Shown piece by piece: positions 1,552 through 3,788 of a stretch of DNA of 28,494 nt. The notes below the pieces were generated by a model that had not been told where the DNA came from, ran no database searches, and saw only the letters and a program-made list of their open reading frames with translations. The DNA is from a virus. The DNA is taken from positions 1 to 28,494 of the IMG/VR virus record IMGVR_UViG_3300007539_000138, one strand, 5' to 3'. A program made the position numbers and the translations under genes. Position 1 is the first letter of the stretch. Each line of letters opens with the position of its first letter.

Positions 1552-1594
1552 AGGTTTTCCATACGACTATATAGTCTAAATTTTTATATTTTAT

Positions 1595-1623
1595 AGTGGC
1601 GAAGCTATATAGTTTTCGCCACT
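1595..1623 (-). promoter_or_regulatory. Perfect 9-bp hairpin at the 5' end of a late leader
   Basis: On the minus strand, AGTGGCGAA and TTCGCCACT flank an 11-base loop containing ACTATATAG. The hairpin starts about seven bases after the TATAAATA box, so it would be at or very near the transcript's 5' end. What follows is A-rich (ATAAAATATAAAAA), not a U-tract, so it does not look like an intrinsic terminator for this strand. The loop can pair with the palindrome GACTATATAGTC at 1565-1576, giving a possible pseudoknot. Confidence 0.6.
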
Positions 1624-1629
1624 TTCATT

Positions 1630-1637
1630 TATTTATA
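1630..1637 (-). promoter_or_regulatory. T4-type late promoter box (TATAAATA)
   Basis: An exact TATAAATA lies directly after the TAG stop of the DSA-repeat fibre gene and upstream of the edge fibre gene. In T4 this box is the only sequence element read by the late sigma factor gp55. A start about 6-7 bases downstream would give a leader of about 80 bases. Confidence 0.7.
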
Positions 1638-3437
1638 CTAGAAAGTACCGCCGTCTACCTGATTAATTTCAACATATCCTGTGCTTACTGTAACTCTAAA
1701 GTCACTATCGTTGAACTTAGCAAGACCTGCGCCATTAGCAATTAAGGATGTATCTGGATGCTCATCTGCACTATCGAACCTAAGTTCAGCCGTTGCGCCA
1801 GAGGAACTAACTGTACCGGCCAGTGGTACAGTAAAGTCGATTGCTCCGCCGGAATCATCATATCTTACATGAATGAAGTTCTGAATACTTGTGGTGCTAT
1901 CAACCATTGCCCCAACAAAGTCTTCAATGGCTTCTGCCTTGAGAGCAACTTGTGGAGCATTAGGAGCATCAATAAAGATAAAATCAGTTGAGTCAAACAT
2001 CGTCTTAAGACCGACAGAATCGGTAATTCTTAAGATATCAAATGTTGCAGAGTCGCCGGTCAGCGTAGTAAAGTGTGCCGAATCTACACCATTAATATTT
2101 GTAAACGACGCATTAGTAGCAGATAATTTGTTAATCTGAGCAGAATCAATCGTACCAGAATCGAGATAGAATCTAGTGATTCGTGCTGAGTCGATGTATG
2201 CAGAGTCAATATCAGCAAAATTGATATGGGCGGAATCAGCAAATAGATTTCCAACGTAAGCAGAATCGATATACGCAGAGTCGATATCAGCGGTATTGAT
2301 GTGTGCTGAGTCAACAAAGAGGTTCGTGATATTAGCAGAATCGATCTGAGTACTGTCTAACGTGGTCGGACCAGTTACGTTCAGCTTGCCAAAGTCTGCT
2401 GAGTCAGCGCTAATACCACCATTGGATCCGGAAGATCCAGTAATATGAAGATCTCTATTAATTTGGAATTCAGAATCAGGATCATACCATTCTAAGGACG
2501 GAGCAGCAGTGCTACCCCATGCAGAAGAATCGCCAATCTGAATACCACCACCGGTAAGATCCGATGTATTAGTAGCATCGTCACCAAGTACCAGATTCTT
2601 ATCACTAATAGTAACTTCAGTTGAGTTAACAGTAGTGGTAGTACCTTCTACCCTTAAGTTACCGAGAATAACTAATTCACCAGAGTCGCCCACTGGGAAC
2701 GGGTTAATAGTAAGTGTAGAGCCACTAGTAGACTGGATAGTTGTTCCACTAATATTAATTTCACCAATATTAGCAGAATCAGCATCAACATAGTTAATCT
2801 TAGCAGAGTCGATAGTTGCTCTATTAGTAACTGTTAGATCGTCAATTTTAGCAGAGTCGATATATGCAGAATCAGCACTAAAGAATTCAATATGCGCAGA
2901 ATCGGTAACCTCGATATTTGTTACCGAAAGATTACTATCAATTGTGAGCTTAGTAATTGTAGCGGAATCTGCGAGTAAAGAACTGATATTACTGAGAACG
3001 TTTCCACTGAATGTAATATTACCAGCAGCATCAAATACTAAATCTCCAGAAGAAGTGGTAATAGTATTACTGTCTGCTTCACCAAAGCGAAGGTTATCTA
3101 CTCGCCATCTGTCAATAACACCAAGACTGTCTACGAGTACTACCGTACCATAGGAGTTATCAGAGGTTTCATATGTAGGAGTAATCTGAAGAACACCAGG
3201 GGTGTGATCCATCTTTTTGGTGTAGTATTCACCACCAACAATGGCTGATCTATTACCTCCTACTCCATTTGGTACACCGACAAATAATCTTTGACCAGAT
3301 GCGGTTGCACTAGGATTAGGTGCACCAGCACCAAAGGTATAGGCAGGTTCACCTCTAGCTAGAATGGTACCCGGAGAATTGTCCGAATCGGAACGTTTAA
3401 AAAGTATGGTAGCACTATGGCCAGATCCGTGTGACAT
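1638..3437 (-). CDS. Tail fibre-like protein with DSA repeats
   Basis: This 599-aa protein has a marine T4-like fibre head at residues 1-120 (ATILFKRSD, LARGEPAYTF, LFVGVPNG, EYYTKKMDHTPG). The middle, about 155-465, is low-complexity with repeated DSA and DSAxI units. It includes a near-perfect tandem pair of 25 residues at 375-399 and 400-424 (core DSAHIN-ADIDSAYIDSA). Between them, around 245-335, is a fibre segment with SDKNLVLGDDATNTSDLTGGGIQI. There are 32 Asp-Ser dipeptides in the protein. It ends in VDGGTF, almost the same as the upstream gene's end (VEGGTF). The start follows the upstream stop directly (TAAATG), with a GGGGG stretch upstream. The repeats suggest an elongated trimeric shaft, which is inference. 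Receptor specificity is unknown. Confidence 0.7.
   Translation of the reverse strand: MSHGSGHSATILFKRSDSDNSPGTILARGEPAYTFGAGAPNPSATASGQRLFVGVPNGVGGNRSAIVGGEYYTKKMDHTPGVLQITPTYETSDNSYGTVVLVDSLGVIDRWRVDNLRFGEADSNTITTSSGDLVFDAAGNITFSGNVLSNISSLLADSATITKLTIDSNLSVTNIEVTDSAHIEFFSADSAYIDSAKIDDLTVTNRATIDSAKINYVDADSANIGEINISGTTIQSTSGSTLTINPFPVGDSGELVILGNLRVEGTTTTVNSTEVTISDKNLVLGDDATNTSDLTGGGIQIGDSSAWGSTAAPSLEWYDPDSEFQINRDLHITGSSGSNGGISADSADFGKLNVTGPTTLDSTQIDSANITNLFVDSAHINTADIDSAYIDSAYVGNLFADSAHINFADIDSAYIDSARITRFYLDSGTIDSAQINKLSATNASFTNINGVDSAHFTTLTGDSATFDILRITDSVGLKTMFDSTDFIFIDAPNAPQVALKAEAIEDFVGAMVDSTTSIQNFIHVRYDDSGGAIDFTVPLAGTVSSSGATAELRFDSADEHPDTSLIANGAGLAKFNDSDFRVTVSTGYVEINQVDGGTF
2166..2315 (-). 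repeat. Tandem 75-base repeat inside the DSA fibre gene
   Basis: Two consecutive 75-base units (2241-2315 and 2166-2240) encode VDSAHINTADIDSAYIDSAY and ADSAHINFADIDSAYIDSAR, each followed by five more residues. They are part of a wider field of DSA units between about 2030 and 3010. Codons differ between units, so the similarity is stronger in protein than in DNA, which argues against a very recent duplication. Confidence 0.7.
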
Positions 3438-3788
3438 TTAGAATGTGCCCCCTTCGACCGTCTGTCTATCTAATATTACCTTTGCTTCCCATTGTCTAAA
3501 TCCCTGCGTTCCACTCACATAATTCCATTGTAAGATGCTACCATTTTTAATAGGAGCTTGACCGTTTTGAATTCTGGTGACATTATCAGTCGAACCGGCA
3601 ATGTTAAATCCATCACTATCAAGTACATCAGACATATTAGATAAAGAAAGATCTGTTCGAGTTAAAGCTTTAAGAGTGCCAGCGGGACTACCGATAACAA
3701 TCTTTTCAACCAAAGTATTATTTTTATATTCTACCTTGACCTTTTTTGTCTCTTTTGTTCTTCTTAATTCGCTAACGTAAGTAGGCAT
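3438..3788 (-). CDS. Small structural protein of unknown function
   Basis: This 116-aa protein is not recognised beyond its setting. It starts MPTYVSELRRTKETKKVKVE, has no membrane segment or signal peptide, and contains a likely beta-rich middle. It ends TVEGGTF, a tail shared with the fibre gene just downstream (VDGGTF). Its start lies three bases past the stop of the BppU-like gene. The junction GAGATAAGATATGCC closely matches the one in front of gp8. It sits between a small BppU-like protein and a fibre, so it may connect or decorate a fibre; that is inference from position. Confidence 0.55.
   Translation of the reverse strand: MPTYVSELRRTKETKKVKVEYKNNTLVEKIVIGSPAGTLKALTRTDLSLSNMSDVLDSDGFNIAGSTDNVTRIQNGQAPIKNGSILQWNYVSGTQGFRQWEAKVILDRQTVEGGTF

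Follow-up and report, generated by a model that had tools for sequence, protein, structure and literature searches.

Comparison of related sequences indicates that the tail-fibre gene of what seems to be a marine T4-like phage has a real conserved leader, comprising one well-supported hairpin (H1) and a second symmetric element (H2), whereas a conserved pseudoknot between the two is unsupported. Protection of the 5′ end would be the most likely function of this leader, with possible tuning of translation, and the proposal in the original prediction that it stabilises the mRNA or controls translation is plausible.

The window, by which we mean the whole stretch of DNA analysed, is a virus sequence of 28,494 bases whose minus strand carries T4-type tail genes and all of the leader features described here. 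The late promoter motif TATAAATA (1630–1637) comes right after the stop codon that ends the upstream gene (1638–3437), which encodes 599 aa with the C-terminus VDGGTF. H1 (1595–1623) consists of the arms AGTGGCGAA (1623–1615) and TTCGCCACT (1603–1595), which form nine perfect pairs around the 11-base loop AACTATATAGC (1604–1614). An A/T-rich spacer (1577–1594), with no U-tract after H1, joins this hairpin to H2 (1565–1576), the palindrome GACTATATAGTC, which is able to fold as a 4-bp hairpin with an AUAU loop. The ribosome-binding sequence GGAG (1548–1551) is found 13 bases 3′ of H2, and the tail-fibre gene (1–1542) starts with an ATG at 1542, with 513 aa visible before it continues past the window edge. 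The product of this gene matched phrog_4527 short tail fiber protein (2.4e-24), and also phrog_5342 and phrog_17885 tail fiber protein. The promoter, 9-bp stem, 11-base loop, palindrome and ribosome site that had been claimed for this locus were thus all found, on the minus strand, as was a 9-base arm of the loop complementary to an arm of H2, 30 bases apart.

The window leader (1538–1632) has a z of −2.71 and folds better than all but one of 200 dinucleotide shuffles, and its first 45 bases gave a z of −5.6 (60 shuffles). Nine other promoter-like sites in the window, located 16–34 bases (in one case 120) 5′ of a gene, gave z values of −0.76 to +1.68, in agreement with the earlier statement that the other late leaders are short and mostly unstructured. 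The two window copies of CTATATAG both lie in the leader, but at least two copies were also present in 25 of 100 shuffled windows. As a separate observation on the upstream gene, its terminus (1638–1660) resembles that of the window gene at 3438–3788, which ends in VEGGTF (3438–3455), and the upstream fibre-like proteins of L003–L012, L014–L017 and L073 end in DGG(T/S)(F/Y) with a late promoter directly after; this ending may be a common C-terminal tag.

Relatives were collected from viral_contigs using the first 113 fibre residues as query, which gave 39 loci, and using the same fibre query as an alignment, which gave 28 loci, 22 of them on contigs from the first search. Besides the window, 18 contigs were read as close relatives. 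They carry 13 distinct H1-type leaders, another hairpin in L009 and L073, and a leader without H1 in L017, while L013 is identical to L011 and L022 to L017, as judged from a leader set in which L006, L008 and L073 are cut 4 bases late owing to a second promoter motif; including the window, there are 17 distinct leaders (14 H1-type, two with a replacement hairpin and one without). Homologs of the upstream gene sit 5′ of the leader in all 15 relatives compared. L009, L073 and L017 were omitted from the alignment (A2) as H1 is absent, L041 was omitted from the tree and the fourfold-site test owing to its short coding part, and L037 is cut at a contig end and so has no leader. The leaders of the more distant loci that were read were short or different.

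The exact stem pattern had one match in viral_contigs, in an unrelated stretch, the loop-plus-arm pattern matched 14 stretches, three of them (L045, L050 and L052) unrelated sequence, and the promoter-stem pattern matched 16, again with three (L058, L059 and L061) unrelated; a final pattern scan gave 11 stretches, all on contigs from the earlier searches. The sequence CTCATATAG was found in 10 of 17 relative records, as a single copy in nine and as two in G002. Nine of these ten carriers have a copy at the leader, while the remaining one, G016, has no leader of this type. A covariance model (R1) run against 38 sources gave 13 matches up to an E-value of 1, comprising eight expected ones, three reverse-strand echoes at those leaders, L080 (E 0.14) and a G001 site (E 0.17). 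In Phage C48C1, the nearest named record by gp8 (33% identity), no such leader was found within 75 bases 5′ of the fibre gene CDS0001. A scan of genome_contigs yielded one distant relative, L116, where positions 1001–1231 of a Thalassobacter stenotrophicus genome contig share 52% identity with the fibre N-terminal query; this stretch is perhaps a prophage.

In the 14-row alignment of 14 distinct leaders, 94.4% of the H1 stem cells are paired, and three of the nine pairs show changes on both sides. Pair 20–42 appears as G-C, G.U or A-U, and pair 21–41 as C-G or U-A. When mapped onto a tree built from fibre coding sequence, in which 13 of the 16 tips have H1 states, pairs 20–42, 21–41 and 24–39 show four, two and four changes of state, respectively, always to standard pairs on A2. 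When the 3′ partners of H1 and H2 were slid by 1–3 columns, the share of paired cells fell from 91% to 32–53%. Only three measures stand out against 500 shuffles, namely cells paired and the covariation score, each reached by one shuffle, and cells changed on both sides, reached by eight; the observed number of doubly changed pairs was reached by 145 and that of pair types by 449. A scripted count of the H1 core (eight pairs, or six in L009 and L073) gave 113 Watson-Crick, 10 G.U, no A.C and one other among 124 cells from 16 leaders, part of the pairs being fixed beforehand by the anchor patterns with which the script locates H1 and H2; the occurrence of G.U but no A.C points to selection on the sense-strand RNA. 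The ninth stem pair is broken in 7 of 13 leaders.

RNAalifold applied to A2 predicted H1 with an inner 3-bp extension, H2 being absent from the prediction. With 30 coding bases added, the probability of H1 exceeded 0.5 in 10 of 14 transcripts and was low in L005 and L014 (~0.43), L006 (0.03) and L016 (0.01). Full fibre leaders from the six scanned H1 genomes had z values of −3.3 to −6.6. The loop contains CTCATATAGT in 11 of the 14 H1-type leaders and CTATATAG in the window, L041 and L016. A different hairpin sequence covers the start site in L009 and L073, although these replacement hairpins are missing from the minimum-energy folds with 30 coding bases; H1 is lacking in L017 and in the identical leader of L022. 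Pairing rather than sequence is kept in H1, as seen both from the compensatory changes and from the other hairpin in L009 and L073. Identity among 13 leaders is 0.83 compared to 0.56 at fourfold sites of the fibre gene, the leader being higher in 77 of 78 pairs, in a comparison where the leader takes in the first fibre-gene codons. Taken as evidence from alignment, these data show that the leader is under strong selection and that H1 is a sense-strand RNA hairpin conserved by compensatory change.

The arms of H2 are kept in all 17 leaders, as GACT or GACTT, with GGCTT in two, and the loop bases vary, giving the pattern GACT(T)NNNN(A)AGTC in relatives. The distance from H2 to GGAG is 11–13 bases (17/17), and comparison shows H2 to be a symmetric element with a set spacing from the ribosome site 3′ of it. 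Among 82 H2 cells there are two G.U pairs, in a count whose anchor pattern leaves little space for A.C. MAFFT placed the 12-base H2 of the window group off register by one in A2, and the H2 pairing of 85.7% in that alignment is too low. The predicted energy of isolated H2 is −2.8 to −3.7 kcal/mol, and its probability exceeded 0.5 in 7 of 17 whole transcripts (30 coding bases added), with 0.62 in the window. An ATG is also found 1–2 bases 3′ of H2 in all 17 leaders, directly followed by TAG in 12; in the window, a 6-codon frame (1562–1543) starts from it and overlaps the fibre start, possibly a tiny upstream reading frame, or a product of chance. Separately, in the distant fibre leaders of L083/L086/L088 and L080 (bases 1900–2000), the region from a late promoter-like motif to the start codon contains the paired palindromic elements GGGTTATATAACCC, GGCTATATAGCC and GGCTACATAGCC, centred on ATAT or ACAT.

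The 9-bp match between the H1 loop and the downstream sequence has a P of about 0.001 in the window (2000 shuffles of the downstream part), a value that ignores that both copies are one self-complementary octamer. The H1 loop and H2 of the window both contain CTATATAG, which is its own reverse complement, and the loop matches H2 because both carry the self-complementary CUAUAUAG. The original prediction made conserved pairing in related phages its test; the H1 stem passes it but pairing of the loop with H2 does not, as the loops of all 13 other H1-type leaders give only 4–6 consecutive Watson-Crick pairs, a length reached by 28–99% of shuffles. The predicted loop–H2 duplex in the window has an energy of −9.1 kcal/mol, compared to −2.8 kcal/mol for isolated H2 (pseudoknot penalty excluded), whereas five other loop–H2 combinations gave −1.3 to −5.0. 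L041 came nearest to support, with a loop–downstream duplex energy reached by 7% of shuffles. Counted on A2, with its H2 register off by one, only 1 of 14 and 2 of 13 sequences, respectively, form the two pairs at the centre of the helix that had been proposed. A conserved loop–H2 pseudoknot was rejected in the relatives on these grounds, and the pairing in the window is probably a by-product of the shared self-complementary cap. We thus regard an H-type pseudoknot setting fibre translation, like that of T4 gene 32, as very improbable; such a structure may form in this one phage, though it is not what selection has kept.

The motif TATAAATA 5′ of a late structural gene identifies a T4-type late promoter, with predicted activity. 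In T4, the late consensus TATAAATA is placed at −13 to −6 (PMC1524935), a distance that puts the predicted +1 at base 1624. With the T4 distance assumed, H1 begins at +2 in 12 of 14 leaders, at +1 in L011 and at +3 in L008. The six-pair core of the replacement hairpin begins at +1 in L073 and at −2 in L009, where the full stem extends from −4. The start is uncertain in L006, L008 and L073 because a second, overlapping promoter motif lies 4 bases further on. The H1 stem is also found 13–15 bases 3′ of the upstream stop codon (14/14), and with this fixed distance its position does not set H1 apart from a 3′ element.

Scanning 124 intergenic promoter-like sites from 14 sources gave 13 hairpin rows, seven of which belong to this fibre leader, from six genomes, one of them represented by both of its overlapping motifs; the other six rows represent five hairpins of other genes, beginning at −6 to +3, some of them terminator-like. 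None of 54 in-gene motifs had a start-site hairpin. The scan, with a loop limit of 16, missed the G011 fibre hairpin, and the G007 and G012 parts stop short of the fibre leader. Strong hairpins over late starts are thus rare in these phages, regular at the fibre gene and present elsewhere as well. Among loci outside the fibre leader, a G001 fragment (L096, near 10460 and 15774) has strong hairpins at its portal and tail-tube genes (assigned by PHROGs), from −4 and −3, respectively, relative to the predicted late starts; a U-tract comes after the tail-tube hairpin, giving a terminator-like hairpin directly on a late start. In Phage C48C1 (L111, 27020–27110), 5′ of a fibre-assembly gene, the late motif falls within a long hairpin, in one of its arms and its loop, and read-through and late transcripts would consequently fold differently, as reported for T4 gene e.

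Our preferred explanation, held tentatively and at slightly less than even confidence, is that the leader serves the late fibre mRNA as a conserved, structured 5′ UTR, with a 5′-terminal hairpin that shields the message. By closing the primary transcript at its 5′ end, H1 would slow both pyrophosphate removal of the RppH type and 5′-end-dependent entry of an RNase E-type enzyme; slow entry into decay would in turn give a longer-lived fibre mRNA, while H2 probably acts on the ribosome site. As reviewed for E. coli, RppH and RNase E need single-stranded 5′ ends, and 5′ structure stabilises mRNA because of this reliance; loss of RppH alters only about 10% of E. coli mRNAs (PMC3997798). The start of the stem at +2, under the assumed T4 distance, fits a shield, and the presence of another hairpin there in L009 and L073 is consistent with a structural role. 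Shielding alone would not require the loop to be conserved; the identity of CTCATATAGT in 11 of 14 leaders points to a partner and keeps an operator reading alive.

According to that reading, H1 and H2 bind one phage or host RNA-binding protein that sets fibre translation, as for the operators of T4 genes 32 and 43. The loop is constant while the stem varies, both hairpins have similar U-A-closed caps, such hairpin pairs also occur by sequence in L083/L086/L088 and L080, and H2 keeps its distance from GGAG. However, A/T-rich caps easily recur in A/T-rich DNA, L017 has lost the loop and L009 and L073 have a changed one, L083 has two alternative folds, and the binding protein is only putative, which together make an operator unlikely. 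Its more specific form, in which H1 and H2 act as twin operators whose similar caps are recognised by one phage or host RNA-binding protein, and can also pair into a two-state switch where both caps are one palindrome, as in the window, appears quite doubtful. H1 could instead be a 3′ element of the upstream gene, either a terminator or a 3′ stabilising hairpin, in line with its constant position past the stop codon of homologous upstream genes and with the terminator-like hairpins over other late promoter-like sites (G001 55774; C48C1 before CDS0201). We consider this rather unlikely, as a U-tract is missing after H1 in 14 leaders, the next bases being ATAAAATA, CTAATATA or TAAAAATA, and a terminator here would also end the transcript from its own promoter; the absence of H1 from a hairpin listing with a loop limit of 8 is uninformative, since that limit excludes it regardless.

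A switch hiding the ribosome site, with GGAG paired to upstream or coding bases in alternative folds, would account for the 13 of 17 predicted transcripts (30 coding bases added) in which GGAG is below 50% unpaired, and for a 13-bp helix that joins the 5′ half of H2 to AUGUAGGUUUGGA, predicted in L004, L008, L009, L016, L017 and L073. The partners nonetheless vary between relatives, with no compensatory changes seen for them, and GGAG is 58–79% unpaired in the window, L041, L003 and L010, leaving such a switch decidedly improbable. The palindromes in both window elements could also suggest a DNA element beside the promoter, such as a dyad-symmetric protein site, a cruciform or a recombination joint; given the G.U pairs without A.C in the H1 core, which indicate selection on the sense RNA, and the H2 length of 12 or 14 bases, which makes the half-site spacing vary, this is extremely unlikely.

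Among known systems, the 5′-end shield resembles the stem-loops that stabilise E. coli mRNAs from the 5′ terminus (Emory 1992; Bouvet and Belasco 1992; papA; PMC3997798), where a hairpin likewise occupies the extreme 5′ terminus of the transcript, here a predicted one. The present case differs in concerning a late phage transcript with a conserved loop as well, and stabilisation would here follow by analogy. Among T4-type phages, the gene 32 pseudoknot of T4, T2 and RB69 (PMC3014915) also lies 5′ of an A/U-rich stretch and ribosome site, whereas here the pairing is not conserved and the gene is a late fibre gene rather than that of a DNA-binding protein. The T4 gene 43 operator is similarly an upstream hairpin with a conserved loop, but in a polymerase gene and with a known binder, the binder here being putative. 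The leaders of T4 e, soc, 49 and I-TevI also combine a late promoter with leader structure; in those, the ribosome site is within the helix and late transcripts escape it, while H1 is located wholly 3′ of the promoter and leaves GGAG uncovered. T4 genes 25 and 38 have a small hairpin near a tail-gene start as well, and a split ribosome site of their kind was rejected as their hairpin lies between the SD and AUG, whereas H2 is 11–13 bases upstream of GGAG. None of these T4 leaders, as described in PMC3014915, has the anatomy found here. The cyanophage RNA motifs manA, wcaG and PhotoRC-II are associated with metabolic and photosynthesis genes (PMC2864571). Rfam 15 gave no gathering-score matches in the window, the best in 1500–1700 being 16.4 bits against a cut-off of 58.7, and a narrow search of open-access literature found no conserved fibre-gene leader of this type.

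The leader is a new instance of an overall kind already known, and adds, for uncultured marine T4-like phages, a conserved fibre-gene leader RNA that is missing from Rfam 15. The tempting idea of a pseudoknot is also corrected: two hairpins sharing one palindromic cap will look complementary and need not pair. The conservation of the leader suggests that the dose of the fibre protein is tuned after transcription; if the twin operators were true, this marine T4-like lineage would set the amount of its receptor-binding fibre after transcription.
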